DNA of 62,256 bases from a virus, in the IMG/VR virus record IMGVR_UViG_3300035701_000029, positions 1 to 62,256 of that record; one strand, written 5' to 3'. Numbering within the stretch: the stretch's first letter is position 1; every line of letters starts with the position of its first letter. The notes beneath the pieces are model-generated. The model was not told the DNA's origin and ran no database searches. It was given only the letters and a program-made list of their open reading frames with translations. The translations under genes were made by a program, and so were the position numbers. Shown in pieces: positions 45,259 to 62,256 of this stretch.

Positions 45259-45877
45259 AATCAATCCTCCACTGAATATCATTGACGTTTGTTCTATCTG
45301 TATACGCCAATAAAACAGCATACTTTGCCCCACGAGGAGAGGGATGGTCACCGAAATCTATTTTATAGTAAGGATTTATCTTTTTTAGGTTTTCTATAAT
45401 TGTTTCTAAGCTAATGTCTTGCCAACACTTACCCTTAGCTTTCCATTCCGGGTTAGGAGCAACTCCAGCTTGGTTAATGTCGTCAATAAGAATGCTATGA
45501 GTTTTAATGGGATGGTTTCTAATCGCGGCTAGCTCTTCAATAATAGGAACTTCAACTCTACCCACAGTATACCCAGGTTCCCAGTGACCATCTAGCCAAA
45601 AAGTAATAGGTTTTTCAATTTTCTCAATTATCGACCATAAAACATCTGCACTATCCCCTAAATGCAAATGGACATTCTTATTTTCTTTATACCTCTCTTT
45701 AGCCATATCATAAAAATAAGAGTCTATTTCTATACTATGTATTTCCTTAAAGCCGCACTGCAAAGCCGTTAGTATCCCCTGCCCCTTAAAAGTGCCGGTT
45801 TCGATAAAGACATCATTACGGAATTGTAATAACAAATCCCATCTTAATGTGGTGTTTTCAAAAAATAAACTGGACAT
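45242..45877 (-). CDS. SAM-dependent methyltransferase, sugar-cluster type
   Basis: 211 residues from ATG 45877 (AGGGG upstream; TAATG overlap). The SAM loop is FIETGTFKGQG near 24, acidic second strand IEIDSYFYDMA near 50, then LHLGDSADVLW near 72 and a metal-type DGHWEPGY near 97. The fold resembles O-methyltransferases acting on sugars or small molecules. Confidence 0.75.
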   Translation of the reverse strand: MSSLFFENTTLRWDLLLQFRNDVFIETGTFKGQGILTALQCGFKEIHSIEIDSYFYDMAKERYKENKNVHLHLGDSADVLWSIIEKIEKPITFWLDGHWEPGYTVGRVEVPIIEELAAIRNHPIKTHSILIDDINQAGVAPNPEWKAKGKCWQDISLETIIENLKKINPYYKIDFGDHPSPRGAKYAVLLAYTDRTNVNDIQWRIDFEAIY

Positions 45878-46905: not shown

Positions 46906-47917
46906 TGTTTTCCCTCCGTAAGAACTCATACAGTTCAAGCGCCCATCTTTCATTGCTCCTATACTTAGCACAAAAGTCCCGAGAACCTTCAGTATATATA
47001 TTAATAAATTGCGGCAATTCGAATATCATTTCAATCTTGCGGCTGAGATCATATACATTAAAAGGTTCTGCATATATGCCAAAATCTCCATATATGCGTC
47101 TAGCTTCTGGCCAATCTGCTGCTATGACCGGTTTTCCAATTGATATCCCCTCAAGACCACATTGAGATACAATCCTAGGGTTATCGGGGAAAGTAATAAT
47201 TGCAGAAGACTCATGGTAGTGCTTATATTTATCCATTTCTGAACAATTTGGTATTTGTTCGTAGGGGACCTTAAGAAATGAAGCAAGCGAACTCAAATCT
47301 GGTCCAACTCCCAAAACTAGAAGCTTAATTGAGGTGTCGGCCATTGAAATGGCCTCTAAGATCATATGCACCCCTTTATCTGGACGAACTATCCCCGAAT
47401 AACAAAGCTGTTTCTTAATTTGGAAATCTCTTGGGTTAAGATTGAGTGTGTTAACAGGGTGAAACAACGGACATGTAGGAATTGACAACCCCTGAAGCTC
47501 GTCTATATCAATTTTCTTCCATGAAGTCAAGAAATCTAAATAAGATAGTACTCCCCCATATTGCGACCACATTTTTTGAATATGTGGTAAGTAGTTTCTT
47601 GTTTTAGGGATAAAAGTATGGGAAGGTAAATCTAAGATGTTGCATCCAACTTTTTTTCCAGTGTGATCTTTGAGATGCAACAAAAGCGGAATTGCAGAAA
47701 TATCAAATCCAAAGAAAATATCATATTTTGAGATATCGGCTGTATCCGATGTTATAATATTCACTTTCGGTAGATCAATCTCAAACGGTATAGTTGGATT
47801 CCCCTCAAATAGGTAGGCTACATCTATGTCGAAGTATTCTTCTAGAGCCTTTGCTACTGGATAGACCTGCCCTGGAAAAGCAGCAAAAAACAAGCACATT
47901 TTTAACCGTTCGGCCAT
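46898..47917 (-). CDS. GT-B glycosyltransferase
   Basis: 339 residues. Donor-site features: CYSGIVRPDKGVHMILEAI near 180, LLVLGVGPDLSSL near 205, SQCGLEGISIGKPVIAAD near 270. The N-terminal half includes an unusual FFGFDISAIPLLLHLKDHTG. Overlaps its neighbours by 8 and 16 nt; AAGGA before the ATG. Confidence 0.78.
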   Translation of the reverse strand: MAERLKMCLFFAAFPGQVYPVAKALEEYFDIDVAYLFEGNPTIPFEIDLPKVNIITSDTADISKYDIFFGFDISAIPLLLHLKDHTGKKVGCNILDLPSHTFIPKTRNYLPHIQKMWSQYGGVLSYLDFLTSWKKIDIDELQGLSIPTCPLFHPVNTLNLNPRDFQIKKQLCYSGIVRPDKGVHMILEAISMADTSIKLLVLGVGPDLSSLASFLKVPYEQIPNCSEMDKYKHYHESSAIITFPDNPRIVSQCGLEGISIGKPVIAADWPEARRIYGDFGIYAEPFNVYDLSRKIEMIFELPQFINIYTEGSRDFCAKYRSNERWALELYEFLRRENIV

Positions 47918-48984
47918 ATGATCTTCCTTAGTGATTGAACAAAAACTTGTTTGCTGTACCTGCTATTAAGAAACTCTTTCATTTCAACTATGTCTGTTTC
48001 AAATGTAAGAGCCTTCTTCATTTGGGCAGTAAATTCTTCGGGAGTCCTAGCAAACAGTATGTGTTTGTCTAGGTACATCTCTCTGTTAAGCGGATTATCC
48101 CATACTACTGAAGTCTTTCCACACCACATGCACTCAGCTATAGTTCCAGAGCCACAATATGACCCTCTTTCGCCAGAAATACCAAATTTAGCCCCAGCGA
48201 TAAAGTTATACTTCTCTGTTTCGGTTATCTCTGACAAGATTCTTAAAGTGATGCCATGTTTAGCTGCTAGATTCTTGCATTTTACTTCATCTGGGCCACT
48301 ACCTACAAAATATAGGTCTAGTTCATCTTTAAGGTCTTTGAACATCTCGATAATTTCAGCTTGGCCCTTATGTTCATTAATACTGGCACACGAAATAGCG
48401 TAGTCCCTAGCCCCCTTATATGGTTTTGTGGGTTCTTCAAAAAATACTGGGTAGAAGACTTTACCGACTGGCATCTTATTAAGGTAAAAATAACTATTGT
48501 AATAGGTAGGTGTCTTAACTGCTATAAGATCCCAGTTCCCCCTACTTAGCTCTCGTTTGATCGTATCCCAGCTAGCTATATAATCGGAATAGTAATGATG
48601 CTTGCCACTATAGTAGTCCATAGGGATATCTAACAACATTACGTACTTCCTAATATTATCTATCTTAGATGCTATGGCTCTATACACATTTTCAGCAGAA
48701 GTTAAAACTGTGTGGTCTGTCGCCAACAAAACAACGTCTTTACCCTTACATCTTTCTATAAGATCCGGACTAACTACTAAATTACCGCTCTGTGAATCTA
48801 TCCTATTAAAAATGATTTCATCAGAAAGGCTTTCTGATGTTTTTAATTTCCGAAAAGAAAGCCTCGCTGGGAAAAGACAAATAGGGACAGTTTCAATGTC
48901 CATTTGTTTTTTAATTTCTTCTGATACAAGAAGGACAAAGTGTTCGGTTATTTTTGTAACCAAGATAATTACTTTATTGGGCAT
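47902..48984 (-). CDS. GT-B glycosyltransferase
   Basis: 360 residues with clear C-terminal GT4-like domain: SCASINEHKGQAEIIEMFKDL near 205, YFVGSGPDEVKC near 230, GSGTIAECMWCGKTSVVWD near 280. Overlaps the aminotransferase gene by 11 nt. A cytoplasmic enzyme working with the neighbouring sugar enzymes. Confidence 0.78.
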   Translation of the reverse strand: MPNKVIILVTKITEHFVLLVSEEIKKQMDIETVPICLFPARLSFRKLKTSESLSDEIIFNRIDSQSGNLVVSPDLIERCKGKDVVLLATDHTVLTSAENVYRAIASKIDNIRKYVMLLDIPMDYYSGKHHYYSDYIASWDTIKRELSRGNWDLIAVKTPTYYNSYFYLNKMPVGKVFYPVFFEEPTKPYKGARDYAISCASINEHKGQAEIIEMFKDLKDELDLYFVGSGPDEVKCKNLAAKHGITLRILSEITETEKYNFIAGAKFGISGERGSYCGSGTIAECMWCGKTSVVWDNPLNREMYLDKHILFARTPEEFTAQMKKALTFETDIVEMKEFLNSRYSKQVFVQSLRKIIWPNG

Positions 48985-50059
48985 CGTTGACTACCTTGCA
49001 AATTAAGTTAATATGCTCTTTTGTTAGAGAAATTGAAGATGGTAAACAAATGGTACGTTGGAATAAAGATATTGCATTTCCTTGACCAACTGTTTGTAGA
49101 TGTTTAGTAAACGGCAAGCTACTCATCGGTTTAAAAATGTACCTATAATCAATAAGATTGAGATCAAGTGCCCTCATAGCATCATCTCTTTTGTGCTTAT
49201 TAGGAAAAGTAAATGCATTTAACCAAAAATTAGGCTTTGCTCCAAGGACATGGGCCTGTGGATATGCTGGCGGGTTGATCCCTATCTCGTAAGACTTTCT
49301 GATTGTTGTTTTGTACTGTAGGAAGAATTCAATCTTTTTCAACTGTGAACGCCCCAGCGCTGCGGACATATGAGTCATTCTGTAGTTATACCCAGCTTTT
49401 GCATGATCGTATTCTTTACCACCTGGATAATGACTGACTAAATTGTACGCCTCTTCGTACTGCCAATCTGGGACAACTAAAGCTCCGCCTTCACCCGTAG
49501 TAATGATCTTATTAGCGAAAAAACTGAAAACCCCGTAGTCTCCCCTTGTCCCACAAAATCTTCCTCTAGCATCTTTGCTTCCAAGAGACTCGGCTGCATC
49601 TTCAATGACCACAATGTTCTTAGATTTGACATACTGTTCGAAATTGTCCGAAAATTCAAATGGTGTGCCAAGCAAATCCACAGTAATAATATGAGAAATA
49701 TCTTTGTCTTTGAGATATTGCCAATTCATATTCCAATCAGAACTAGTAATATCACAAAGAACAATCTTGTTTGTTTCTTGGAACAAAGCATTAAGAGTTG
49801 CAGCAAAAGTTATATCTGGAATTGCAACATATTCGGCGTTTCTAACTCCCGACAGAACATAGGCGATATGAAGAGCGGCACTACCGCTCGAAGTTAAAAC
49901 AATTCGTTTGTTAAGCTGCGCAAGACCTAAATAGTCTTCCAGATCGTGAGCAAATCGTACATACTCTGGCCCATGATGCGAAACCCATCCCATTTTCAAC
50001 CCATCGGACACTGCTTTAACATCTTGTTCTGTAATACAGGGCTCTAGTACTTTAATCAT
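48974..50059 (-). CDS. DegT/DnrJ/EryC1/StrS sugar aminotransferase
   Basis: 361-residue PLP enzyme. Key parts: TSSGSAALHIAY near 57, IPDITFAAT near 81, EDAAESLGSK at 153-162, and Schiff-base Lys184 in FSFFANKIITTGEGGA. It would aminate a 3- or 4-keto nucleotide sugar. The product could be donated by the adjacent glycosyltransferases. No dehydratase or reductase partner is in view, so the keto-sugar is probably drawn from the host or encoded elsewhere. Coupled by ATGA overlap. Confidence 0.88.
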   Translation of the reverse strand: MIKVLEPCITEQDVKAVSDGLKMGWVSHHGPEYVRFAHDLEDYLGLAQLNKRIVLTSSGSAALHIAYVLSGVRNAEYVAIPDITFAATLNALFQETNKIVLCDITSSDWNMNWQYLKDKDISHIITVDLLGTPFEFSDNFEQYVKSKNIVVIEDAAESLGSKDARGRFCGTRGDYGVFSFFANKIITTGEGGALVVPDWQYEEAYNLVSHYPGGKEYDHAKAGYNYRMTHMSAALGRSQLKKIEFFLQYKTTIRKSYEIGINPPAYPQAHVLGAKPNFWLNAFTFPNKHKRDDAMRALDLNLIDYRYIFKPMSSLPFTKHLQTVGQGNAISLFQRTICLPSSISLTKEHINLICKVVNDAQ

Positions 50060-51123
50060 ACATACTCCTCAAAAATTTTAGTGAGTCTTTCGCCACTTGC
50101 CCTGGGGGAGAAATAATCGTCTACTCTTTTGTGCGCCCTGCGCCTTAAAGAAAAAAGATCAACCTCTCTATTAAGAACTTGAAGTATTTTAGCCTGTAGG
50201 TCTTCTACATCTTTAGGTTTTGCGTATATGGCACAATCCTCGTATTCTTCTCTATTGATAGGATAATCAAACACAACTGCCGGAACTCCCAAGGCCATAG
50301 CTTCTAGGGGAGCAATGGCTCCCATCCATGGGTTACATTGTGGGTAGCAAAGTAGCCTAGAGTTTTTAACAATTTCATGTTTCTTAAGTTCTGGCGCTTT
50401 GGGGAAATATTCAAATCGTTTGCCCAAATAAGATTTTGCTAAAGCTACTTGTTCCGCTTCCTGAGATCCACCAACTGCTACTGCTTTATAGCCAATATCA
50501 ATTCCATATAGGGCTTCTATTAAGTATCGACCCCCCTTAAATTCTTCAAACCTATGAGAAGAAGAGACATATGGCTCAACATCAACCATCTCCGAATTAT
50601 TTATTTTGTAAATCATGTCTAAAGTAGCAACTACGAAGAAAGACTTCTTAGCTGGCTTCTGAGTTCTCTTAGTATATTCTTCGGCAGCAACCGAACTAAT
50701 AAAAATCAAACTATCTAACTCTTCTCCAATTTTTAAATACCTATAAAACCTGTTAGAATAGTCTTGATTGTAGTTTGGTTGGCCTGGATCAATAACATGA
50801 ACTGGAAAATCTAAGAAAATACAAAATGCTGGAACTCCATAAAATTTTTTAAGTGACGCAACATATGGCACAACAGATTGATCTATTCCAATGATAACAT
50901 CTGGTTTTTCTATAGACTCGGGAATAGTAGTATAGACCCCATGAGGAACTTTTATAATGTCTTCGCTAATTAAGGGAGCTGGTATCCACCCGTTACAAAA
51001 AATTCCATGATCTATATCGTGAAGAATCTTCACTTCATGGCCCACTTCTTTTAACCCAGAAGCAATTGCTAATTCCTGATGGCCAACAAATAAAGTGCCG
51101 TTAGCTATGCACAGAACTTTCAT
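50056..51123 (-). CDS. GT-B glycosyltransferase, paralog of the next gene
   Basis: From ATG 51123, 355 residues beginning MKVLCIANGTLFVGHQEL. The C-terminal donor domain has LLCYPQCNPWMGAIAPLEAM near 265. It is closely related to the neighbouring protein through matching N-terminal (HQELxIAxGLK) and C-terminal segments, indicating local duplication. Acceptor unknown. Confidence 0.75.
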   Translation of the reverse strand: MKVLCIANGTLFVGHQELAIASGLKEVGHEVKILHDIDHGIFCNGWIPAPLISEDIIKVPHGVYTTIPESIEKPDVIIGIDQSVVPYVASLKKFYGVPAFCIFLDFPVHVIDPGQPNYNQDYSNRFYRYLKIGEELDSLIFISSVAAEEYTKRTQKPAKKSFFVVATLDMIYKINNSEMVDVEPYVSSSHRFEEFKGGRYLIEALYGIDIGYKAVAVGGSQEAEQVALAKSYLGKRFEYFPKAPELKKHEIVKNSRLLCYPQCNPWMGAIAPLEAMALGVPAVVFDYPINREEYEDCAIYAKPKDVEDLQAKILQVLNREVDLFSLRRRAHKRVDDYFSPRASGERLTKIFEEYV

Positions 51124-52183
51124 TACACACATGCTCCAAAATTTGAGTTAGCGCTTTTCCTGCTTGTTCTGGTGTAAACATCAATTGAACCCGTTCTTTG
51201 CCCCTAGCCTTTAGGGTTTCGAGATCAATTTCTTTGTTTAACACCAATAAAAGCTTTTCTTGTAAGTCGTCTATATTTTTAGGGGCTGTATATACAACAG
51301 AGTCACCAAAAAACTCTTTGTACAAAGGGAAGTCAGAGCAAACTACAGGAGTCCCCATATACAAGGCCTCAAGAACAGCCATCCCCCCTGACCATCCACA
51401 TAAATTGGGGTAGCAAAGAACTTTCGCACTTTTCAATAATCTCCACTTATTAGCTTCTGCAAGTTTTGGATATGGGTGGAATTTATCCGCAAGCATTCTT
51501 TGAGCAAACGCTATAACTTGGGGCTCAATAAACCCCCCTGCAAAAGCAGCGCAATAGTCTACCATCATTTCACTAAGAGCTTTAATAAGGTACTCTGTTC
51601 CATTGTAGCTAAAGAATTTATGAGTAGAAGCTATATAGGGAACGTCAATATCGAATTTTTTACCATCAATTGCATTTGTTGTGCAAAGAGGGTAGTAAAA
51701 ATAGTATGGGGGCTTGCGCAAGTTATTAGCAGCCCTAAGCGCCATGGTTTTACTGGTGAAAATTATACCTCCACTCATTTCGTTTGCGTAATTAATGGCG
51801 GTGTAGTAGTTAGCTGAATATTCTGGATCATAGTCCTGCGGAGACCCCTCATCAATCATATGACGTGGATAATCAAGCATAATGCAACTAGCAGGGCAAT
51901 GATACTCGCTCTCATATGCCCTAGTCAAAGCAGACACACTCTGGTCTAGCCCCAAACAGCAATCTACCCCCTTAATCCCCTTCTCAACTTCGAAATCTCC
52001 CGGCTTTTTAATTATGATCTCTTTAGATAAGAGAGGAGGGGGGATGTATCCCTTGTTAAATTCGCTACATTGTGGGTCATGAAGAATAACCACTTCGTTT
52101 CCAGCTTGCTTAAGCCCCGCTGCTATATGCAACTCTTGATGGGCCATTGATAAAAACCCATTACCAATTAATAGTACCTTCAT
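51101..52183 (-). CDS. GT-B glycosyltransferase, tandem paralog
   Basis: 360 residues starting MKVLLIGNGFLSMAHQEL. The C-terminal part carries VLCYPNLCGWSGGMAVLEAL near 250 and NIDDLQEKLLLVLNKEIDL near 305, parallel to the neighbour's sequence. Both have a conserved GLDQSV or GIDQSV phrase in the N-terminal half. ATGA overlap with the zinc protein gene. Confidence 0.75.
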   Translation of the reverse strand: MKVLLIGNGFLSMAHQELHIAAGLKQAGNEVVILHDPQCSEFNKGYIPPPLLSKEIIIKKPGDFEVEKGIKGVDCCLGLDQSVSALTRAYESEYHCPASCIMLDYPRHMIDEGSPQDYDPEYSANYYTAINYANEMSGGIIFTSKTMALRAANNLRKPPYYFYYPLCTTNAIDGKKFDIDVPYIASTHKFFSYNGTEYLIKALSEMMVDYCAAFAGGFIEPQVIAFAQRMLADKFHPYPKLAEANKWRLLKSAKVLCYPNLCGWSGGMAVLEALYMGTPVVCSDFPLYKEFFGDSVVYTAPKNIDDLQEKLLLVLNKEIDLETLKARGKERVQLMFTPEQAGKALTQILEHVCNESSVHS

Positions 52184-52404
52184 TTATCCACCCAAACAAT
52201 TCCCGAAAAGAACAACCATTCTATGTCTGATCTTTTAAGCTTTACCTTGCGGTTATCGGCGAAGTATAGAAAACATTCTAGGCAGAGTTTTTTTTCAACT
52301 AGGCTGGCCGGAACAGACATGGCCCAAATAATATCGTTGATCTTATAGCTTGCTCTCCTGATTTTCTTGCAATAGCTACAGCGTTTTTCCATATTCTCAT
52401 CCAC
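52180..52404 (-). CDS. Small zinc-binding protein
   Basis: 74 residues with CSYC near 9 and CLEC near 41, a probable zinc knuckle. It is embedded within the glycosyltransferase operon with TAGTG and ATGA overlaps and uses GTG as start. Could regulate or scaffold neighbouring enzymes; not assignable. Confidence 0.6.
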   Translation of the reverse strand: MDENMEKRCSYCKKIRRASYKINDIIWAMSVPASLVEKKLCLECFLYFADNRKVKLKRSDIEWLFFSGIVWVDK

Positions 52405-53363
52405 TAGGTTAGCTCCATGTGTTTAAAAATCTTTTCAAAGCTATGCTTAAAGGTAAAAGAAGATAAGACCGTGTTCATTCCCCTATCTGCAATCTTTTTC
52501 CTAAGATCCGGTTTGTCTCGGTAAAACTCTATTTTATCGGCACACTCTTCGTTAGAACTATATAGAATGATATTCCTTCCGTCTTGAAAGAAATCTGTAT
52601 GGCCCTTAATTCTGTTGGTTATTAAGAACCCACCAGCAGCCATAATTCTATAGTCCCTAGCGCTCCAAGAGTATTTAATATTTGGCCATCCGCTATGTCC
52701 AAGGTTTATAATGGAATTAGCAGAGACTACGTTGTTGCCCCAATTGCCAGTAATGCTTTCTCCAACGTGTCGGCCTTTCAGATCAACTGTCCCATAGATT
52801 TTTCCATAAATTTTAATAAGATCATCAAACTTTTCAACCAAGTACTTTAGCCAATCTGCCCTATCTAGGTGAACAAACCCTCTTTGTTTATACCATTGAG
52901 AATCTTCTACTATTTGGCCAACAAAAGTACACCCATAGTAGTTATTAGTCTTAATTGGATAGTGAGACCACGGATCGCAGCCTTCTGGAACCCAGTAACC
53001 TTTAGGAAAAGCCTTGGCGTGATCTGGGGAGATGGTGAAAAAGTAGTCTAGCTTATCTAACCCTGGGCGTAGAGAACTTACTGGAACTTCTACGCCGCCA
53101 AATGTAACATCGAAGATCCAACCGCATTTTATGGGGCACTCTATCCAATCAATGAAGTGTTCTAACTCATTAAGATATAGAATAAGACAAACATCTGGCT
53201 TTATTGTATTGATAAAATCTACGGTTCGCTCAATTGAATGATTCCGATGATCGGAGAATGAAAAATCTATTTCTAGGGCGTGTTCTCTGGCAAATTCATG
53301 TAGTCCGTTACGTAAAAAAATGTTAGACTGCCCATCATTGGGCATAGACAAATGAACTTTCAT
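52404..53363 (-). CDS. CgeB-like glycosyltransferase
   Basis: 319 residues. Features of the CgeB/Glyco_trans_1_2 group: CGWIFDVTFG near 84, GCTFVGQI near 148, SWSARDYRIMAAGGFLITNR near 232, and an ending with repeated DKIEFYRDKPDLRKKIADRG. It starts directly after the previous stop. Such proteins often modify polymers or phage structures. Confidence 0.75.
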   Translation of the reverse strand: MKVHLSMPNDGQSNIFLRNGLHEFAREHALEIDFSFSDHRNHSIERTVDFINTIKPDVCLILYLNELEHFIDWIECPIKCGWIFDVTFGGVEVPVSSLRPGLDKLDYFFTISPDHAKAFPKGYWVPEGCDPWSHYPIKTNNYYGCTFVGQIVEDSQWYKQRGFVHLDRADWLKYLVEKFDDLIKIYGKIYGTVDLKGRHVGESITGNWGNNVVSANSIINLGHSGWPNIKYSWSARDYRIMAAGGFLITNRIKGHTDFFQDGRNIILYSSNEECADKIEFYRDKPDLRKKIADRGMNTVLSSFTFKHSFEKIFKHMELT

Positions 53364-53615: not shown

Positions 53616-54568
53616 ATACAACTCCGTAAAACCCTATTACAGATTTCGTATCTAAGTTCCATTTCGGCCTTCGCAACATCTCTAAAATTTTGACCGTATT
53701 GTTCTTGACCTTGGTTAGACGCATGAATCTGTTCCGAAATCGAAGTTGCTATACTTCTTGGAGAGTCGTTTCTCTTAACACATAAGGAAGATGGGACCCA
53801 AGATAAACTATTGCTAACTAAACATGGTACATGACACATGGCATGTTCATAGGCCGCAATATTAAATGAGTCACTATAGGTAACCTGCAACCCCAATCTA
53901 GAACTAGCGACAATCCTTGTTTTTTCTTCTTCGGTAATTGAGGCAACAGAGTTAGACCAATTGTCAATACCAAACATTTTTTGAAAATAATCAAAGGGTT
54001 CATATGCCATCATATAGCTGTAAACTGGCTCTTTTACATGGAAGTCTCTTTGGGCAATTTTAATAGCGGCTAACTGGTTCATAAAGTTCCTATGAGCCCT
54101 AAGATTGTTCCCAATCAATAAAATCCCACTTCTCTTATGTATAGGGGTGTATATTCCTTCAAAATCTGAGACAACCGGTAGAAAAACAATTCTTTTGTCC
54201 GCAAAAGTCTCCGAAATTCCTTTATCGGAACAAAAAATATAATCTAGTTTGTGCGATCTGTCCTCCAACATAGACAAAAGGTGGCCAAATAATGAAATTT
54301 CGCCATTACATGATGCTTGCCCTAACGGAGAACAGAACAAATACCCAATTTTTACTCTAGATGGTAGGTTTTGTATCCACTCATAGACCTCTTGCGGTAA
54401 ATAATTGCCAAAAATCACTAAGTCGGCATGTTTGATCTCCTCATAAACATAATCCATTGAAGAGATACCACCAATTTTATGCTTTGTTAGGCCAGTTTTC
54501 TCCAAAGAGCGCATGGTGGTGTTCAACCCGTTGTGTGGATCACTAGATTTGTTTATGGTATAAATCAT
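53612..54568 (-). CDS. GT-B-like glycosyltransferase, divergent
   Basis: 318 residues. Only the C-terminal half is recognisable: GILLIGNNLRAHRNFMNQLA near 152 and LGLQVTYSDSFNIAAYEHAM near 224 with PCLVSN after it, which corresponds to a donor site. N-terminal half is divergent. Overlaps both neighbours by ATGA. Confidence 0.65.
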   Translation of the reverse strand: MIYTINKSSDPHNGLNTTMRSLEKTGLTKHKIGGISSMDYVYEEIKHADLVIFGNYLPQEVYEWIQNLPSRVKIGYLFCSPLGQASCNGEISLFGHLLSMLEDRSHKLDYIFCSDKGISETFADKRIVFLPVVSDFEGIYTPIHKRSGILLIGNNLRAHRNFMNQLAAIKIAQRDFHVKEPVYSYMMAYEPFDYFQKMFGIDNWSNSVASITEEEKTRIVASSRLGLQVTYSDSFNIAAYEHAMCHVPCLVSNSLSWVPSSLCVKRNDSPRSIATSISEQIHASNQGQEQYGQNFRDVAKAEMELRYEICNRVLRSCI

Positions 54569-54783
54569 TTGCTACTCTTTGATGGAAAAAACAATGAAGA
54601 AAGAAAGTAAATAGTGAGAAAAACACCAAATGCCTGGTACGGGGTGATTGCTTTTTGGCCAAACACCTCAACCATCACCCAATTCCACAGTGTATGTGTT
54701 ATCCAAGACCCCAATAATATATAAACTATGATAAAAATGGCAGCAGTAACTCCAATAAGAACCCATTCCCATATTTTAATCAT
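54565..54783 (-). CDS. Two-helix membrane protein
   Basis: 72 residues with hydrophobic helices at 5-26 and 47-64. A small integral membrane protein, perhaps anchoring the glycosylation enzymes or a holin-like accessory. Coupled by ATGA on both sides. Confidence 0.6.
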   Translation of the reverse strand: MIKIWEWVLIGVTAAIFIIVYILLGSWITHTLWNWVMVEVFGQKAITPYQAFGVFLTIYFLSSLFFPSKSSK

Positions 54784-55085
54784 ATTCTTCTCTTCCTTCG
54801 CTTCGGTGGAGCTATGCTAACTATGGTAGTTTTATCCACTTTAGGCCGTCCCCTCTTAGCCTTTGTAGTAACAGTGGTAGATTCTTCAATTTTAGCCATT
54901 TCATCAGGACCAAAATACCTCAAAATAGAGTTAAGAGACTGATGATCTAAAACTTGACCCTCTCTTATAATTGCTTCTATCTTTTCGTATTTTTTTCTAC
55001 AGGGAGTGCAAAGGTAAATGCCCTTCCATTTCTCAAGTAGATAAACCCGATGAACACATATCGGGCAGCACAACTGGTCGATCAT
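54780..55085 (-). CDS. Zinc-finger protein with AT-hook
   Basis: 101 residues: CCPIC near 6 and CTPC near 26 form a zinc knuckle, followed by KRGRPKVDK near 77, a strong AT-hook, and a basic end (PPKRRKRR). A DNA-binding regulator or nucleoid-type protein is likely. Confidence 0.7.
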   Translation of the reverse strand: MIDQLCCPICVHRVYLLEKWKGIYLCTPCRKKYEKIEAIIREGQVLDHQSLNSILRYFGPDEMAKIEESTTVTTKAKRGRPKVDKTTIVSIAPPKRRKRRI

Positions 55086-55318
55086 CTGATTTTAATAGTC
55101 AGTTGAATTGGAAGCTTGATGTTGGGGCTAATGTAGAATGTTTCTTTGGAGATACCATGAGCCTTACCATAATCGGTAAAACACTTAACCAATTCATTAT
55201 AAATGTTTGCTTCTGTAATCACTAACTCACCAACATATTGATCTGCGGAGTTAGTAAGGGTAAATGTGTTTTGGTCCATTGTCCCCGAAACCTTTATATG
55301 TCCTTTAAGGTCAATCAT
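55082..55318 (-). CDS. Unknown small protein
   Basis: 78 residues, beta then helix, beginning MIDLKGHIKVSGTMDQNTF. ATG overlaps the upstream zinc protein gene by 8 nt and its end overlaps the AT-hook gene by ATGA. No family recognised. Confidence 0.55.
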   Translation of the reverse strand: MIDLKGHIKVSGTMDQNTFTLTNSADQYVGELVITEANIYNELVKCFTDYGKAHGISKETFYISPNIKLPIQLTIKIR

Positions 55319-55460
55319 CTTCTTCCTCTTCTTCTTCGTCAGCAGTACTTTCTTCTATAAGCCCTTTTTCCGCTCCGCAGATTGGACATCCTTCTTCCCA
55401 TTCGAAAATAAATGGATAGGTGTCTATGTACGAACAAATAGTGCATTGGACTTTTTCCAT
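55311..55460 (-). CDS. Acidic zinc-ribbon microprotein
   Basis: 49 residues, ATG at 55460 after GGAGGGG. CTIC near 7 and CPICG near 25 form the ribbon; the C-terminus is a run of acidic residues. It is missed by usual size cut-offs. Might mimic nucleic acid or bind RNA polymerase. Confidence 0.65.
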   Translation of the reverse strand: MEKVQCTICSYIDTYPFIFEWEEGCPICGAEKGLIEESTADEEEEEEDD

Positions 55461-55480
55461 ACGAGCCCCTCCGCTCTAAA

Positions 55481-55501
55481 GGAAAAGCCCCTTTTTGGGG
55501 C
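55481..55501 (-). terminator. Rho-independent terminator
   Basis: Minus strand GCCCC-AAAAA-GGGGC followed by TTTTCC. It lies after the gene ending at 55531 and before the zinc-ribbon gene, dividing the operon. Confidence 0.75.
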
Positions 55502-55530
55502 ATTGTTAAGTTTTTCGAAAGTTCCAAATT

Positions 55531-55809
55531 TCACTGGTTAAAGTACTCCATAACGTCTCCGGACCTATGTATAAGAACTTGGCCTCCTGACGGAAAGTTC
55601 CCTGATCTAATATATATCTGTATCAACTCTTGCTCATACAGAAGTTTGAAGCGTTCAAGCTCTGACTGTGTGATAAAGATTTGTCTGCGATTGTTGTACT
55701 TGACTGCAAGTTCAGCAATAAACGACAGCACAGACAGCTTAACTTTGATGTTTGTAAACTTGGCTAGTTCCTCGGTAGTAGCATGAGCGAGTTTTCTAAA
55801 CCCCTTCAA
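55531..55809 (-). CDS. Unknown protein
   Basis: 92 residues from TTG 55809, close to AGGAG. Helical (ELAKFTNIKVKLSVLSFIAELA) with a basic centre. Overlaps the preceding gene by 14 nt. Not recognised. Confidence 0.55.
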   Translation of the reverse strand: MKGFRKLAHATTEELAKFTNIKVKLSVLSFIAELAVKYNNRRQIFITQSELERFKLLYEQELIQIYIRSGNFPSGGQVLIHRSGDVMEYFNQ

Positions 55810-56227
55810 AATCTCCTACCTCCCTTGGGAGAGCCTTACCCTTAATTGGAGATGTCATAATATAGTCCAAATAAGTTATTGGGTCCATCGTTAAATTATA
55901 GGCGTACTTAATCTCTCCATGATCGACAAATTTCTGTTCTTGGACATGATAATGGTCGTGGATAAAGCTAGAGTCATAAGGGTAGTGAACTTCTACGTCA
56001 CAAGTCACTTCTCCATCAATCATGGTATAATCAGGATCGTTTTCATACTCAATAGTAACAACACCACCAGAAGTACACATGAACGCAATAACCCCAGCAA
56101 AAAACTCCTTGTAGTACTCCTCGCAGTGGTCTACGTTTTCGCCAGAAGAATTTCTAAATTCATTAATTAAGGAAGAGATGTCTTTACCCAACTCCCTAGA
56201 CCGCTTTAAAAGCTGTTCTTTTGTCAT
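55796..56227 (-). CDS. Unknown acidic protein
   Basis: 143 residues with a GAGGGGG site. N-terminal helix, then beta-rich acidic segment (VTIEYENDPDYTMIDGEVTC, YPYDSSFIHDHYHV). Possibly an inhibitor or DNA mimic; no family match by eye. Confidence 0.6.
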   Translation of the reverse strand: MTKEQLLKRSRELGKDISSLINEFRNSSGENVDHCEEYYKEFFAGVIAFMCTSGGVVTIEYENDPDYTMIDGEVTCDVEVHYPYDSSFIHDHYHVQEQKFVDHGEIKYAYNLTMDPITYLDYIMTSPIKGKALPREVGDFEGV

Positions 56228-56292
56228 GTTCCCCCTCGAACGTGTTGACTGTCTAGCTGTTGACTCTGATATCTCTTATATCCTACACTCCT

Positions 56293-56451
56293 CTACGCAT
56301 CACCGGTGTCTTCTGCTTCCGACAACAATTCATCTACCCGCTTCAAAACCTCTTCTTTATCTAAAATAGCTTCGTTCTCATATTCATAGTTACCAGTCTT
56401 CATCCATTCCAACAAATAGCCTTTAGTTAAACAGCGAATTGCTAAATACAT
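56293..56451 (-). CDS. Small acidic helical protein
   Basis: 52 residues, ATG at 56451 following AGGGGGTGA. MYLAIRCLTKGYLLEWMKTG then an acidic helix. It is the first gene after a terminator and a late-type promoter motif, so it may be separately expressed. Confidence 0.6.
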   Translation of the reverse strand: MYLAIRCLTKGYLLEWMKTGNYEYENEAILDKEEVLKRVDELLSEAEDTGDA

Positions 56452-56470
56452 AGCGTCACCCCCTCTTAGT

Positions 56471-56481
56471 CTTAATACGGT
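56471..56481 (-). promoter_or_regulatory. Putative promoter motif, ACCGTATTAAG
   Basis: The minus strand reads ACCGTATTAAGACTAAGAGG, similar to the ACCGTA(G/T)AAAT motif. It sits between a strong terminator and the ATG at 56451, where a new promoter is expected. Confidence 0.45.
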
Positions 56482-56491
56482 TTAGCCAAAC

Positions 56492-56521
56492 AAAAAAAAG
56501 GAGCCGATTTTACTCGGCTCC
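56492..56521 (-). terminator. Strong rho-independent terminator
   Basis: Minus strand GGAGCCGA-GTAAAA-TCGGCTCC, an 8-bp perfect stem, followed by eight T. It ends the early operon that starts at 59,364. The following 130 bases (56,522-56,654) show no convincing gene on either strand. Confidence 0.85.
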
Positions 56522-56654
56522 CTGTCCCCTCCAACCCTAGCGGTGCGCGCTAGCGATTAGCTTTGAAAATAAAAAAGGGACGAGGGGCTCAGTAAATGCC
56601 CCCCGCCCCACCGAAAGGAGTGAGCAGATGAGATCGCTCACGCTTGAAATACAA

Positions 56655-56777
56655 TTAAACACTTTTCTTCTCAGAGTCAAGAGGAAGTCTTGTTTCTAAT
56701 GTTTTTCTAATGAGTTCAATTTCTTTAGTAGCTGCCTTAAGGATGTTTATTAATTCCCATTCGAAATCTCTACTCAT
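56655..56777 (-). CDS. Small helical protein
   Basis: 40 residues, ATG at 56777 overlapping the preceding stop by 8 nt. MSRDFEWELINILKAATKEIELIRKTL is a single amphipathic helix with a charged tail. Probable but unassigned. Confidence 0.55.
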   Translation of the reverse strand: MSRDFEWELINILKAATKEIELIRKTLETRLPLDSEKKSV

Positions 56778-56985
56778 TGTCTAATCCCAATCCTTTTAAA
56801 TAAGTCTGGCATAGATTGGCTAAAAATCCTACTTCTCTGGGAGTGAGCCAAATCTTTGTGCTATTATACAAGGGGTCGTCCTTATCGAAATATATGCAAA
56901 TATGGGCACTTAAATTCTTATCAAGCTCGAAGGTCAATTCTCCCTTGCCTTTTTCGTCGGTAAGGGCTAGTTGCATTGAACTCAT
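56770..56985 (-). CDS. Unknown small protein
   Basis: 71 residues with AAGGGGA upstream. Beta segments (KGELTFELDKNLSAHICIYF) then a helix (TPREVGFLANLCQTYL). Early-gene context. Not recognised. Confidence 0.55.
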   Translation of the reverse strand: MSSMQLALTDEKGKGELTFELDKNLSAHICIYFDKDDPLYNSTKIWLTPREVGFLANLCQTYLKGLGLDNE

Positions 56986-57056
56986 ACAGTCCCCTTCTTA
57001 AAAATCATCAACGCATACAGTTAATAGATAGAAGATCCCTTAGACCCCAAATTTTT

Positions 57057-57308
57057 TTAAATTAAAGAAGTTGTCCAAAATGGCGGAGCGTCTTCATCGT
57101 TTACTGGTTTAACAAATACAGCATAAAACACAGAATGGCATCTATCACAAGTGAATGGTGAATGTCTGTTGACATCACTAGTTACGTCTTTTTTAGCTTC
57201 GGTTAGATAGAATACTCGCATAGCCATATTTTCCGATCCCTTGCTTTGGGCACTATACAGCTTCCCGCATCTTGGGCAGGGGCAAAGAACTGTATCATAA
57301 ATTCCCAT
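57057..57308 (-). CDS. Zinc-finger protein
   Basis: 83 residues with CPRCG near 11 and CDRC near 54, spaced like a split zinc ribbon. AAAAGGAGG precedes the ATG. Follows the KAS III gene by 11 nt. Likely a small early regulator. Confidence 0.65.
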   Translation of the reverse strand: MGIYDTVLCPCPRCGKLYSAQSKGSENMAMRVFYLTEAKKDVTSDVNRHSPFTCDRCHSVFYAVFVKPVNDEDAPPFWTTSLI

Positions 57309-57319
57309 CTATCCTCCTT

Positions 57320-58231
57320 TTACCATTCCATCACTACGCTTGCAGAAGTCCATCCGGCCCCAACACCAGTAAGTAAGATTTTATCCCCTTCTACAATTCT
57401 CTGTTTGTCAAGAGCATCATTAAGGGCTATTGGAATACAAGCAGAACTTGTATTGGCATACCTATCCATAACAGTGTGAATTTTTTCAAACGGAATGCCC
57501 AAAGCTTTCGCGGCGTCTTTAAGCACTCCAATCCCAGGTTGATGAGGAATGACTAAATCAATATCATCTGCGGTCAAGTTTGCTCTTCTTAGACATTCAG
57601 TAGCACTCGCATAGATATGTTCCACTGCGAGTTGATAAACCCACTTCCCCTTCATGTGCCAAAAGTTATCTTTTTCGATAGTCCAAGCTTCGGCTCCGCT
57701 CCCATCTGATGCCCAATGTGTTGCTAGAATACCTCTACCATTAGATAAGACAACTGCTCCTGCTCCATCACCGAAGAAAACGCAGTTCCTATCTCCCCAA
57801 TCGGTATATTTAGATAGTGTATCTGCTCCGACCACTAAAATATTCCTATACCGTTTGCTCTCCATCATCTCACAAGAAGCGACTAGGGCATAGATAAAAC
57901 TAGCACACACCGCAGTCATATCAAACGCTGGTGGTCCGTTAAGCCCCAATGCGTCTTGAATGTAACAAGCTGTTGCAGGAGCACGTTTATCTGGGGTTGT
58001 CGTTCCAACAATAATTAAATCAATTTCGGTAGCCTTTGCTTCTATGATCGCTTTTGCCGCTGCGTTAAGAGCAAGGCTTCGAGTAGTTTCTTCCACACAA
58101 ATATGACGAGACTTGATGTTTAAAGTCTTCGCCGCCCAAGGAGGGTCAACATAGTGACCCAATTCTTTCAATTGCTCGTTAGAAACACTCCAAGCGGGGA
58201 CACACATCCCAACTCCCATGATTTTAGGCAT
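57320..58231 (-). CDS. Beta-ketoacyl-ACP synthase III-like enzyme
   Basis: 303-residue thiolase-fold enzyme with the full triad: Cys109 (TAVCASF), His230 (IPHQPG) and Asn260 (RYANTSSA). The C-terminal GVGAGWTSASVVMEW ending is canonical. KAS III condenses acyl-CoA with malonyl-ACP at the start of fatty acid synthesis; some relatives make other acyl products. It is rare in phages. Possibly acquired from a host to alter lipid synthesis. It begins right after the upstream stop (TAAATG). Confidence 0.9.
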   Translation of the reverse strand: MPKIMGVGMCVPAWSVSNEQLKELGHYVDPPWAAKTLNIKSRHICVEETTRSLALNAAAKAIIEAKATEIDLIIVGTTTPDKRAPATACYIQDALGLNGPPAFDMTAVCASFIYALVASCEMMESKRYRNILVVGADTLSKYTDWGDRNCVFFGDGAGAVVLSNGRGILATHWASDGSGAEAWTIEKDNFWHMKGKWVYQLAVEHIYASATECLRRANLTADDIDLVIPHQPGIGVLKDAAKALGIPFEKIHTVMDRYANTSSACIPIALNDALDKQRIVEGDKILLTGVGAGWTSASVVMEW

Positions 58232-58534
58232 TTACCACCATAAGTCTCTCCAATACTCACTAAAGGCTTTTATCCCCTTATCGTATCTTTTATGGTCTGC
58301 GGTATCCATTAACTCTTCGTTGGCAACTCTTTCCATAGCGAAAATGATGTCGTCAATCTTTTCATCCCACTTATCCGATGTTAGGCTAGGAGGATACCCG
58401 CAGTTCACCTCTTTGAATCGCTTAAGTCGCGGCAACAGCCACTTAGCTAAGTGTGCATCGAGACACCACGTCTCGGAGTCATCCCATCCACGAGTGAGCC
58501 GTTGCCAAAAGAACTTAACGCTTCTTATTAACAC
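58232..58534 (-). CDS. Conserved phage protein, DDxETWxLD type
   Basis: From GTG 58534 (GGGAGG upstream), 100 residues. Contains RGWDDSETWCLDAHLAKWLLPRL near 15-37 and WDEKIDDIIFAMERV near 70, a pattern I recognise in uncharacterised proteins of many phages. Function unknown. Confidence 0.7.
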   Translation of the reverse strand: MLIRSVKFFWQRLTRGWDDSETWCLDAHLAKWLLPRLKRFKEVNCGYPPSLTSDKWDEKIDDIIFAMERVANEELMDTADHKRYDKGIKAFSEYWRDLWW

Positions 58535-58736
58535 CGAACCTCCCAAGCCTAAATTCAATGTCAGCTAATAAACATTCTAGTCCGCAAGTACACCTCCCAC
58601 AGCCACAAACCAGAGAATCTCTAGAATGACAATATCTATTGTGCTCTAAATATTCTCTGGCTTTGCTGAGGAGAAGTCTTAGTTCGTTCTCGTTCTTACT
58701 CACGCTCTCAATAAGTGTACTTTCCTTTGCTCCCAT
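58515..58736 (-). CDS. Small cysteine-rich protein
   Basis: 73 residues. Helical N-terminus followed by a CGCGRCTCGLEC cluster near 44-55 and a basic end. A zinc or metal-binding early protein. Overlaps VWA gene end by 29 nt and next start by 20 nt. Confidence 0.6.
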   Translation of the reverse strand: MGAKESTLIESVSKNENELRLLLSKAREYLEHNRYCHSRDSLVCGCGRCTCGLECLLADIEFRLGRFGVNKKR

Positions 58737-59364
58737 TGATAAATCCAGGAGCGCTAGTAGAAATTATTCCGGCTTGGTAAACAGCACTAACCGCAAACTC
58801 TCCAGTCCCCCTATAAGTAGAAACAGAATTATCCACAGCTTCCCATAGTCTTGTCGTATGAATAGGGCTAGCAATATATCCAAAGCTATGTCGAATGCCA
58901 ATCATTGAGCCTTCTTTGATCGCATCCTGATTCGCGCCAAGATATACAAACTCCCACTTCAAGTCTTCAGCAGACTCATTAACCAAATCTAAAATTTGCT
59001 TCTTGGTGAATTTTCTAGAAGCGTTCTCTTCTCCATCAGTGATAATGACAAACACCACTTGGTCGATCTTCCTACGTTGTTTCAACAGACGATGTTTCGT
59101 TTTTCCGATGGTATCTCCAATAGCGTCTAAAAGCGGAGTGCCCCCTCTGGGCTCTAAAACTAAAGCAGGCACGCTCTTCACCGATAGCCCCTCATACACA
59201 GTATCAATTCCAACAGAATCGAATTGAACTAGTGTTAGACTGGCTCTCCCCGGCAATTTCTTCTGTCCTCGGACGAAAGTATTAAACCCCCCAATAGTGT
59301 CTTTCTTCACACCCTCCATAGACCCTGACCGATCAAGGAGGACGACAATCTCAGTGTTTTTCAT
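58708..59364 (-). CDS. von Willebrand factor A domain protein
   Basis: The ATG at 59364 with GAGAGGAG upstream gives 218 residues. The MIDAS site is complete: DRSGS at 11-15, Thr76 (RGGTPLLD) and Asp110 (ITDGEEN). It is cytoplasmic (no signal peptide). Phage and bacterial VWA proteins in this form often act with AAA ATPases or tellurite/stress proteins. It is the first gene of the main minus-strand transcription unit. Confidence 0.85.
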   Translation of the reverse strand: MKNTEIVVLLDRSGSMEGVKKDTIGGFNTFVRGQKKLPGRASLTLVQFDSVGIDTVYEGLSVKSVPALVLEPRGGTPLLDAIGDTIGKTKHRLLKQRRKIDQVVFVIITDGEENASRKFTKKQILDLVNESAEDLKWEFVYLGANQDAIKEGSMIGIRHSFGYIASPIHTTRLWEAVDNSVSTYRGTGEFAVSAVYQAGIISTSAPGFINGSKGKYTY

Positions 59365-59376
59365 GGTTTCTCCTCT

Positions 59377-59398
59377 CATTGAAGAATATTCTTCAATG
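59377..59398. promoter_or_regulatory. 22-bp perfect palindrome, probable operator
   Basis: Two perfect 11-bp half-sites (CATTGAAGAAT and its complement) with no spacer lie between the -10 box (59419-59424) and the VWA start codon. Likely a repressor dimer site or a strong hairpin in the 5' untranslated RNA. Confidence 0.75.
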
Positions 59399-59418
59399 GC
59401 TCTGTTAGAGCTTATTAC

Positions 59419-59447
59419 ATTATACGGCAAGGAGGAGCATTTTGTAA
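59419..59447 (-). promoter_or_regulatory. Consensus sigma-70 promoter for the minus-strand early operon
   Basis: TTACAA (59447-59442), a 17-bp spacer and TATAAT (59424-59419) on the minus strand. The start point should fall near 59412, about 48 nt before the VWA ATG. The overlapping palindrome just downstream suggests repression. Confidence 0.8.
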
Positions 59448-59672
59448 GATTTCCGTGCATGAATCACCTAGACGTTACCTTTTCTAGCTCCTGGGAAAAA
59501 TTTACCCAAGTAGGGTTAAATCCTAGACCCGAAATTGGGGATGACTAAGACACTCTCTACTGACTCGTTCGCTAACTCATTGTCTAGCAATAACGTAGTA
59601 TCTATTGTTCTAGAAATCTGTTGAGAGAAGCTGAGCTTTTCGCTCTGCTGAAGCTGAAAGTAGCTGTGAGCT

Positions 59673-59682
59673 TTACGAATAC
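59673..59682 (+). repeat. TTACGAATAC motif, copy 1
   Basis: One of four exact 10-bp copies within 2 kb. Here TCTATACT follows at once, which may act as a -10 box. Lies inside the GG/CC-free island. Confidence 0.6.
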
Positions 59683-59685
59683 TCT

Positions 59686-59745
59686 ATACTGCACATATGA
59701 GCAGATTGAAAGTAGTTTCTCAAGCAATACTGCACATTTGAACAG
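59686..59745 (+). repeat. Imperfect 19-bp direct repeats
   Basis: ATACTGCACATATGAGCAG (59686-59704) and ATACTGCACATTTGAACAG (59727-59745) match at 17 of 19 bases with a 41-bp period. Tandem sites like this may bind a regulator or replication factor. They lie upstream of the plus-strand promoter. Confidence 0.75.
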
Positions 59746-59760
59746 TATGCGAAAAAGCTG

Positions 59761-59789
59761 TTGACTCATGTGCTTCTGTTGTCGATAAT
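59761..59789 (+). promoter_or_regulatory. Sigma-70 promoter inside the GG/CC-free island
   Basis: TTGACT (59761-59766), 17-bp spacer, GATAAT (59784-59789). It obeys the no-GG/CC rule. The start point should lie near 59796, about 78 nt before the ATG at 59874. Confidence 0.7.
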
Positions 59790-59873
59790 GAGAGCAGAAG
59801 CAGAGAAGAGCAAGACGATAATGCACTCACTCATCTTGCTCACAATTCGAGAGTGCAGAGAAGAGCAAAGCAA

Positions 59874-60428
59874 ATGTCAAAGAAGCAAGCTGTAGAAGAG
59901 AAGCAAGTCGAACGCAAGAGCGTTTCGACGAAAGAGAATGCAGACGTTAGCAGATTAACTGCTTTCGTCGATTCTCTGAGCAGTGTCAAGTCTGCTGCTG
60001 CTGCTGTTGAGCAGTGCAGCAGTGAGCAAGAGATGTATCTGCTTGCTCTCGCAATAGTGCGAGAGAAATTGAGTGAGCGTTTTACATTCACTCAATTCGC
60101 TTCTGCTGTTAACGAAAGCGAAAAATGCAAAAAGCTTTCACTCACTGCTTATCTGTACAAGCAGAGAAAAGCAGCGAACGTGCTTTCGCTTCGTGAAAGC
60201 ACTCACTCTATCTGTGCAGACAGAGTCTTGCACAGAGAGAGAGTCGCACAGATTCACAAGTCTGCAAAGACTAGTAACAGCTTTTCAACAGTGCATGTCG
60301 CTTCTGCTTTGCTTGACAGAGCAAAGCACGAAACAGACAATCAAGCAAGAGCAAGAGAAGTGTTTCACTCACTCAACAGTAATGCGATTAGCTTGCTTGA
60401 ATCTATCGTCAAGATAGTGAGCAAGTAA
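59874..60428 (+). CDS. Unknown protein without Gly, Pro or Trp
   Basis: 184 residues from ATG 59874; a GTG at 59853 would add seven residues. The leader reads AGAGAAGAGCAAAGCAA, a GA-rich ribosome site without GG. The protein is rich in Lys, Gln, Glu, Ser, Ala and Leu, predicted almost wholly helical, basic at the N-terminus, with a coiled-coil-like start. No glycine, proline or tryptophan is present because their codons need GG or CC. No known family. Four cysteines are scattered through it. Confidence 0.75.
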   Translation: MSKKQAVEEKQVERKSVSTKENADVSRLTAFVDSLSSVKSAAAAVEQCSSEQEMYLLALAIVREKLSERFTFTQFASAVNESEKCKKLSLTAYLYKQRKAANVLSLRESTHSICADRVLHRERVAQIHKSAKTSNSFSTVHVASALLDRAKHETDNQARAREVFHSLNSNAISLLESIVKIVSK

Positions 60429-60436
60429 TTCAACAG

Positions 60437-60469
60437 AGAGAGAGCAGCAGAAATGTTGCTCTCTCTTTT
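60437..60469 (+). terminator. Rho-independent terminator without GG or CC
   Basis: AGAGAGAGCAGCA-GAAA-TGTTGCTCTCTCT forms a 13-bp stem with one G-U pair, a GAAA tetraloop, and a following TTT. It lies 9 nt after the stop codon. The stem is built from alternating bases only. Confidence 0.8.
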
Positions 60470-60498
60470 CTAATCACTCAATTGAAAGAGAGAAGCAA

Positions 60499-60699
60499 AT
60501 GACAGACAGAGAAGCGACAATTGAAGCTCTTGACAGAGCAATCAACAGAAATGACAGAGAAGCAGTGTATCAGCTTGTGCAATTGCTCAACAGACAGACA
60601 GAGCAAGAGCTAAGAGAGAAAGACAGATTCACGAATATCATACTCTTTGCTTGTGCTTGCGAATTAGCTGCTTGTCTGCTGCTTGTGCTATTCGCATAA
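60499..60699 (+). CDS. Small tail-anchored membrane protein without Gly, Pro or Trp
   Basis: 66 residues. GAAAGAGAGAAGCAA precedes the ATG, a GA-rich site matching the upstream gene's leader. Residues 1-45 are charged and helical (DREATIEALDRAINRNDREAVY); residues 46-65 form one hydrophobic helix (IILFACACELAACLLLVLF) at the C-terminus. It could anchor to the inner membrane. No known family. Confidence 0.75.
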   Translation: MTDREATIEALDRAINRNDREAVYQLVQLLNRQTEQELREKDRFTNIILFACACELAACLLLVLFA

Positions 60700-60702
60700 G
60701 AG

Positions 60703-60720
60703 AGCACTCGAAAGAGTGCT
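60703..60720 (+). terminator. GAAA-loop hairpin after the small membrane gene
   Basis: AGCACTC-GAAA-GAGTGCT is a 7-bp perfect stem with a GAAA loop, three bases after the stop codon. The U tract is weak (TTGAG), so it is a likely partial terminator or RNA-stability hairpin. Confidence 0.6.
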
Positions 60721-60792
60721 TGAGTAGAAAGCCTGAACCTGACCTTAATGTGATGACTGTACATCGACAGCCACATCCAGACCAGAACAAGC

Positions 60793-60802
60793 TTACGAAT
60801 AC
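60793..60802 (+). repeat. TTACGAATAC motif, copy 2
   Basis: Exact copy, followed by TCATGCC. It is 89 bp from copy 3. Confidence 0.6.
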
Positions 60803-60881
60803 TCATGCCTTACCGCTCTTATAAAGAAGTCTCCTGATCCATCATCTTATAGTCTTGTTACTCTTGTCTGGCTATGTCTTA

Positions 60882-60891
60882 TTACGAATAC
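60882..60891 (+). repeat. TTACGAATAC motif, copy 3
   Basis: Exact copy, followed by CTATTAAGC. Orientation agrees with all other copies. Confidence 0.6.
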
Positions 60892-61033
60892 CTATTAAGC
60901 TTGGGGTTTTGTTCTGGTGTGCTAATCTGAGCCTGAGCCCATAGAGTAAGAATGCATTGTATAGAGAGTACTGTGTGTTGGTAGTTTCGCCGAAACCGCT
61001 GTTAAACAATAACCTGTAGTGTTCGGAGGTAGT

Positions 61034-61312
61034 ATGTTGGAAATGGCAATCTGTGCGGATTGTGGTAGATCATGTCGTCTTGATATGATGACCACTCGTC
61101 TTTCACCACTCACTGATGACCCTACTAATGAAGCCTTAGCAGTCAGGCAGTTTGTGTGCGACTCCTGTGCTGACTGGTTTCATCACTTCGGCAACAGTAA
61201 GAGGGGTGAGTGTCACAAGTGTGGAGATAGTATGTGGAAGAAGCATGCGGTTCATGTAGCGGACGATGCATGGGGCTCGTTCGTATGCGGTCTGTGTAAG
61301 GAGGTAGTATGA
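61034..61312 (+). CDS. Zinc-binding early protein
   Basis: 92 residues from ATG 61034 with GGAGGT three bases upstream; a later in-frame ATG at 61043 is possible and has better spacing. Four CxxC-type pairs (CADC, CDSC, CHKC, CGLC) suggest two zinc ribbons. It is coupled by ATGA overlap to the next gene. Likely an early regulator. Confidence 0.75.
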   Translation: MLEMAICADCGRSCRLDMMTTRLSPLTDDPTNEALAVRQFVCDSCADWFHHFGNSKRGECHKCGDSMWKKHAVHVADDAWGSFVCGLCKEVV

Positions 61313-61467
61313 CGTGCGACAAATGCGGTGGGCCTCTAGATGAACAGAGCCACACGTTCATCGAGGACAATGTGCTCTACACCTCAGAAGTCAATATATG
61401 CCGGAAGTGTATCGACGGCATAGATCGGCTTATCAAATCAATCTTCAGCCAACAGAAAGGAGGTTAA
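61309..61467 (+). CDS. Zinc-ribbon microprotein
   Basis: 52 residues beginning MTCDKCGGPLDEQSHTF, with a second CRKC near 32. The start is an ATGA overlap and GGAGGTAGT lies upstream. It is followed by another AAGGAGG site. Probable DNA- or protein-binding early factor. Confidence 0.75.
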   Translation: MTCDKCGGPLDEQSHTFIEDNVLYTSEVNICRKCIDGIDRLIKSIFSQQKGG

Positions 61468-61865: not shown

Positions 61866-62256
61866 ATGTCTAACAAGAAGAACACCACCGAGAACGCGGT
61901 TGTCAAGACTGCGAAGGCTGAGAAGATCGAGAAGAAGCCTGTTGTCGTGGCCCCCGAAGCGAAAGCGGACATGGCTCAGTTGAAAGCAGTGTGTGAGGCC
62001 ATCGTGTCACGCGACAAGGGTGCTCGTCTCTCGGAGTCGGAGATGCTCGTCGCATCAGCGGCGATGAATCTCGACAGGTGGGGAACGAACGTCACGAAGG
62101 AGCAGATGCTCAAGGACGTGAACGAACGATGTGCTTTCGGTGCGTACTACTACAGGGACGCGGCGGAAGACAGAAAGGGCACGTTCAATCTCTATCGTGG
62201 CGTGCATCGGGACGTGTGTGCACATGACGGGAGCAAACTGGGACGTGGCACAAACG
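61866..62256 (+). CDS. Unknown early protein, cut by the window end
   Basis: Open from ATG 61866 to the edge (130 codons, no stop); AAGGAG is 8 bases upstream. N-terminus is Lys-rich, then helical (LSESEMLVASAAMNLDRWG). Codons end in G or C far more often than in the rest of the window, so it seems of different origin or an expression-optimised early gene. No family recognised. Confidence 0.7.
   Translation, partial: MSNKKNTTENAVVKTAKAEKIEKKPVVVAPEAKADMAQLKAVCEAIVSRDKGARLSESEMLVASAAMNLDRWGTNVTKEQMLKDVNERCAFGAYYYRDAAEDRKGTFNLYRGVHRDVCAHDGSKLGRGTN

Follow-up and report, generated by a model that had tools for sequence, protein, structure and literature searches.

The window analysed here is the whole of the IMG/VR virus record IMGVR_UViG_3300035701_000029, which is 62,256 bp long and classed as linear and probably incomplete. 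At a divergent junction of this uncultured tailed-phage genome lies a self-contained rightward transcription unit of two genes, and its extent coincides with an island of DNA that is free of GG and CC (Table 1). The island starts ~90 bp upstream of the predicted promoter of a leftward gene for a VWA-domain protein and ends ~10 bp past the hairpin that follows gene 2. For gene 1, the ATG at 59874 is a more likely start than the GTG at 59853. An Rfam search of 59000-61400 at E-values up to 1 gave a sub-threshold match only.

Table 1. Positions of the features in and around the island, in window coordinates.
Feature	Position	Strand	Remarks
Predicted leftward sigma-70-like promoter of the VWA-domain gene	59419..59448	-	outside the island; match to consensus only
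GG/CC-free island	59541..60731	.	0 GG and 0 CC; kept in the second record
TTACGAATAC motif	59673..59682	+	one of four exact copies; others at 60793, 60882 and 61675
Near-dyad TACTGCACATATGAGCAG (CTG-N10-CAG)	59687..59704	+	possible operator
Near-dyad TACTGCACATTTGAACAG	59728..59745	+	possible second operator, 41 bp downstream of the first
Predicted sigma-70-like promoter TTGACT-17-GATAAT	59761..59789	+	match to consensus only
Leader hairpin GAGCAAGA...TCTTGCTC	59808..59841	+	no better than shuffles
Gene 1 (184 aa)	59874..60428	+	RBS region AGAGAAGAGCAAAGCAA; predicted mainly helical; no Gly, Pro or Trp; no family
Allele patch in gene 1	59919..60077	+	all differences to 3300031772_000124 within 53853-60799
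15-bp hairpin followed by TTTT	60435..60468	+	stem GG/CC-free; z = -5.4
Gene 2 (66 aa)	60499..60699	+	RBS region AAAGAGAGAAGCAA; membrane-type, hydrophobic C-terminal segment; no family
8-bp hairpin, terminator-like	60702..60721	+	at the right edge of the island; z = -2.5
Weak paralogue of gene 1	61866..62256	+	truncated at the contig end; 57% G+C; blastp E 2e-4, phmmer 3e-4 (two-sequence comparison)

All four copies of TTACGAATAC are on the plus strand of the rightward arm, and none is present elsewhere in the window even at one mismatch. Since the unit shares this motif with its neighbours, it does not look like a recent stranger to the genome. Phage moron cassettes are likewise self-contained promoter-gene-terminator units of unlike composition; the island differs from them in carrying the phage's own TTACGAATAC and in its absolute dinucleotide ban.

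Across the 1191 bases of the island (A 386, T 292, G 276, C 237) a recount gave no GG and no CC on either strand, exactly as the initial annotation had stated, and its estimate that about a hundred would be expected was borne out by 500 base-shuffled copies, which contained a mean of 110.6 and never fewer than 89. The two dinucleotides are common elsewhere, with ~5,740 occurrences in the other 61 kb, or one per 10.6 bases, and the runner-up GG/CC-free run in the record is 161 bases long. Chance is an unlikely cause of such a desert. The G+C content is 43% in the island versus 40.6% in the record, and the dinucleotides GC, AG (1.64) and CT (1.69) are enriched instead. Both edges had been described as sharp, which is correct for the left one, where a GG ends at 59540, and at the right one for CC, which starts at 60732, but not for GG, because the GG-free run continues to 60870.

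Among 14 words tested, GATC and GCGC are also missing from the island (P ~0.007 and ~0.003, dinucleotide shuffles). The PAM-like words TTC, AAG, GTN, GRRT and GATT are not depleted. General palindrome avoidance was considered as a cause and rejected: the ratio of observed to expected 6-bp palindromes is 0.83 in the window, and comparable in Microcystis phage MaeS and Bacillus phage Stahl. As a separate observation, the DNA outside the island lacks several 6-bp palindromes (AGATCT, TGATCA, AACGTT and others) of which up to 17 copies would be expected.

With the proteins held fixed and codons chosen according to phage usage, 23.5 GG/CC would be expected in gene 1 and 10.1 in gene 2 (probability of none 8.7e-11 and 3.0e-5, respectively). 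The 435 noncoding bases of the island, for which the expectation is ~38, contain none, and this includes the DNA 5' of the predicted promoter. The stems of the hairpins between the genes and at the right edge are built without GG or CC, and the ribosome-binding sites of both island genes lack GG, whereas genes to the right carry GGAGG and AGGAG. Both proteins lack Gly, Pro and Trp altogether, which has a probability of ~1e-15 for 250 residues at phage amino-acid frequencies. Because synonymous codons, noncoding DNA, hairpins and ribosome-binding sites are all GG/CC-free, the ban acts on nucleic acid, on both strands. The strand-symmetric absence fits double-stranded DNA as the target.

For gene 1 we searched phages, plasmids, bacterial genomes and viral contigs for homologues, and for gene 2 viral contigs; both searches recovered only the near-identical copy in a second record. 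Neither protein had a trustworthy match among Pfam, PHROGs or PDB sequences, and neither resembles a known anti-CRISPR or antirestriction family in Pfam or PHROGs. The structure prediction for gene 1 was poor (pLDDT 46) and its fold matches were set aside. A search with the putative operator sequence returned the second record and one match without a desert.

The second record, IMGVR_UViG_3300031772_000124, which was also the closest relative found in terminase searches, matches 36.9 kb of the window at 99.9% identity and retains the desert. The two records differ in gene 1 by a patch with 25 changed positions in 17 codons, of which 11 are synonymous (for example AGC to TCT and AGA to CGT). 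The patch is GG/CC-free in the second record despite this divergence; the probability of such an outcome is 0.0035 with random bases at the changed positions and 0.07 with random codons for the observed residues. In our reading, the patch stems from recombination with an allele that diverged long ago, and the protein has been under purifying selection. The earlier claim that the constraint lies on nucleic acid and not on one protein, already supported by the synonymous sites, promoters, hairpins and ribosome-binding sites, also survives this allelic divergence. A quarter (25%) of all possible single-base changes in the island would create a GG or a CC, and drift would therefore soon fill an unguarded desert. 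It is well supported that strong and continuing selection holds the island free of both words.

Beyond the nearest 6.9 kb, the differences between the two records are located at 23.9-26.3 kb and 42-44.1 kb. Much of this remaining variation falls in MADTKIS-type genes at 24085-25207, where a stretch of ~500 bp is present in two copies that are 75-77% similar. The second record stops at window position 60799, inside the second TTACGAATAC copy, and this may mark a variable junction.

The weak paralogue at the right end of the window, 1.4 kb from the island, contains 32 GG. Since it uses GG freely, the ban would seem dispensable for proteins of this family. The expectation in the initial annotation that homologues would not use GG/CC freely is borne out by the near-identical allele, which keeps the desert, and not by this weak paralogue. 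A homologue search with the paralogue gave a doubtful match of 24 residues and nothing more. From 62000 onwards its coding strand lacks CC, although 9.3 would be expected from its own third-base usage and none of 5000 recodings reached zero; it also has only 5 TA versus 13.1 expected.

For comparison, we scanned phage DNA from other sources, 1.60 Mb in total, which took in MaeS and Stahl as well as 79 more contigs selected because they carry a related VWA gene. In no single run of this set did the GG/CC deficit exceed 15.9, a value reached in a coiled-coil gene of Stahl, as compared to 111 in the island; the largest deficit for any dinucleotide class was 21.5 (TA in G+C-rich DNA). No GG/CC desert was found in the 79 contigs, and none in MaeS. 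The terminase is ~30% identical to those of MaeS, Stahl and Bacillus phage Slash. In MaeS, a leftward block of genes meets a rightward block, and the second rightward gene codes for ArdA (E 2e-42).

Two other features of the genome were recorded. A gene for ketoacyl-ACP synthase III (57320-58231; Pfam E 2e-28) is present in this phage genome, and its relatives are 21-40% identical, mostly 30-40%, and come from bacteria scattered over many phyla. A glycosyltransferase cluster that includes a DegT-family aminotransferase is located at 45877-53363.

Several explanations that do not involve selection on DNA for its own sake were weighed. Helical proteins without Gly and Pro could yield GG/CC-poor genes through ordinary composition, as illustrated by GG/CC-free runs in the coiled-coil genes of Stahl (193-243 bases) and in A+T-rich DNA of L095 (412). 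The island falls short of expectation by seven times as much as any other run did for GG/CC, and we rejected this explanation, which is extremely improbable, on the grounds that synonymous and noncoding positions also obey the ban. An assembly artefact or synthetic DNA is hardly more credible: just two contigs are known and the independence of their sampling is uncheckable, but the second contig matches over 36.9 kb at 99.9% identity and contains a natural-looking diverged allele, and TTACGAATAC connects the island with the DNA around it. If a CC-specific deaminase had hyper-edited the DNA in the past, which the initial annotation had listed among its possible reasons, this would account for the enrichment of AG and CT, the products of CC-to-CT editing, and the 57% G+C of the paralogue also speaks for it. 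However, the island has a higher G+C content than the phage average and C has not been lost, the substitutions between the alleles are mixed with many transversions in place of a C-to-T/G-to-A pattern, TGG codons would turn into stops, and a zero count is not kept by mutation alone. We consider such editing very unlikely.

Other possibilities place the target on RNA, on modified DNA or within the unit itself. Transcripts of both strands could avoid GG/CC owing to an endoribonuclease or an RNA-pairing constraint, consistent with a rule that is obeyed by the whole transcript and its hairpins and with the lack of CC in the coding strand of the paralogue from 62000 on; the exclusion is nevertheless strand-symmetric and extends upstream of the promoter, which makes selection at the RNA level improbable. 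We assign a similarly low likelihood to the idea that the phage or its host modifies DNA at GG/CC in a context-dependent manner and that this modification has to be kept out of the unit, for instance so that the host RNA polymerase reads the unit first. This would agree with a rule that spans the whole unit on two strands, but among the phage genes scanned in this probably incomplete record none was recognisable as a modification gene. Somewhat less improbable, and still doubtful, is that one of the unit's own products acts on GG/CC-containing DNA by binding, nicking, modifying or silencing it and that the unit escapes by lacking the word. The desert coincides with a protein-encoding unit from promoter to terminator and the paralogue outside the island is not GG-free, which favours such an arrangement; on the other hand, the remaining phage DNA would be exposed to the same activity, and no DNA-binding or nuclease family was seen for gene 1 in family searches.

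The explanation that we tentatively regard as the best, and that agrees with the escape from a GG/CC-reading nuclease or CRISPR system suggested in the initial annotation, is local avoidance of GG/CC by an early unit that probably serves in counter-defence. A host defence would read the two-base word, which could for instance be a CRISPR PAM (CC in type I-F, NGG for Cas9) or the place where a nuclease or nickase acts. The unit would have to survive first, being among the first DNA exposed and/or because its products disable the defence, and once these products had acted, GG/CC elsewhere in the phage would be tolerated. The early expression of the unit, its function and the identity of the defence are all presumptive here.

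The bulk of T5-like genomes carries EcoRI sites outside the pre-early (first-step-transfer) region. Within that region, EcoRI sites are absent (PMC13250531). The likeness is that an early region lacks recognition sites, and the difference is that the site is 6 bp long in T5-like phages, whereas the island, which is early only by our reading, lacks a 2-bp word of which ~110 copies would be expected. New CRISPR spacers are derived mostly from the first-injected phage DNA (PMC6546361), and phages targeted by type I-F systems are depleted in CC (PMC12174588). The same dinucleotide is selected against in that case, but the depletion is genome-wide and partial as opposed to local and absolute, and a CRISPR link for the island is conjectural. 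The missing word does correspond in length to a known PAM (type I-F or NGG; PMC12174588), and other PAM-like words are at normal levels in the island. The loss of PAM motifs in Streptococcus and Vibrio phages has also been attributed to selection (Kupczok and Bollback 2014, PMC4246573), although this concerns genome-wide under-representation of other motifs and not a local, complete absence. Finally, the antirestriction gene ArdA of the distantly related MaeS is the second rightward gene at a divergent junction. By analogy, based only on position and a terminase of ~30% identity, the island occupies a place that could be that of an early counter-defence unit; the MaeS gene does not resemble either island gene in sequence and lacks a GG/CC desert. 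It is the combination of the missing sites in T5-like phages, the CC depletion under type I-F targeting, the capture of spacers from first-injected DNA and the position of ArdA in MaeS that makes local avoidance the best explanation. Against it are the ~5,740 GG/CC left in the rest of the genome, the GG/CC-bearing DNA that flanks the island on both sides, so that its first entry is conjectural, and the lack of resemblance of either protein to anti-defence families in Pfam or PHROGs. A further point against it is that we know of no restriction enzyme that cuts at GG/CC.

It is conceivable, though rather unlikely, that an undescribed activity, either a defence or a product of the operon itself, acts on any GG/CC and imposes an absolute ban, and that the unit has escaped it through changes at all levels, from protein and codons to promoter, ribosome-binding sites and terminators.

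By analogy with the pre-early region of T5, the island may be viewed as an extreme, two-base form of a known type of site avoidance. When phages avoid a motif, they usually do so only in part, and the word concerned is usually longer, whereas the island displays a total ban on a two-base word over a whole operon. The persistence of this ban through the divergence of gene 1 implies that selection is very strong at every position, and suggests a defence or phage activity of minimal sequence specificity. The two uncharacterised proteins of the island are candidate counter-defence factors, and local dinucleotide deserts may provide a simple signature for finding similar units.
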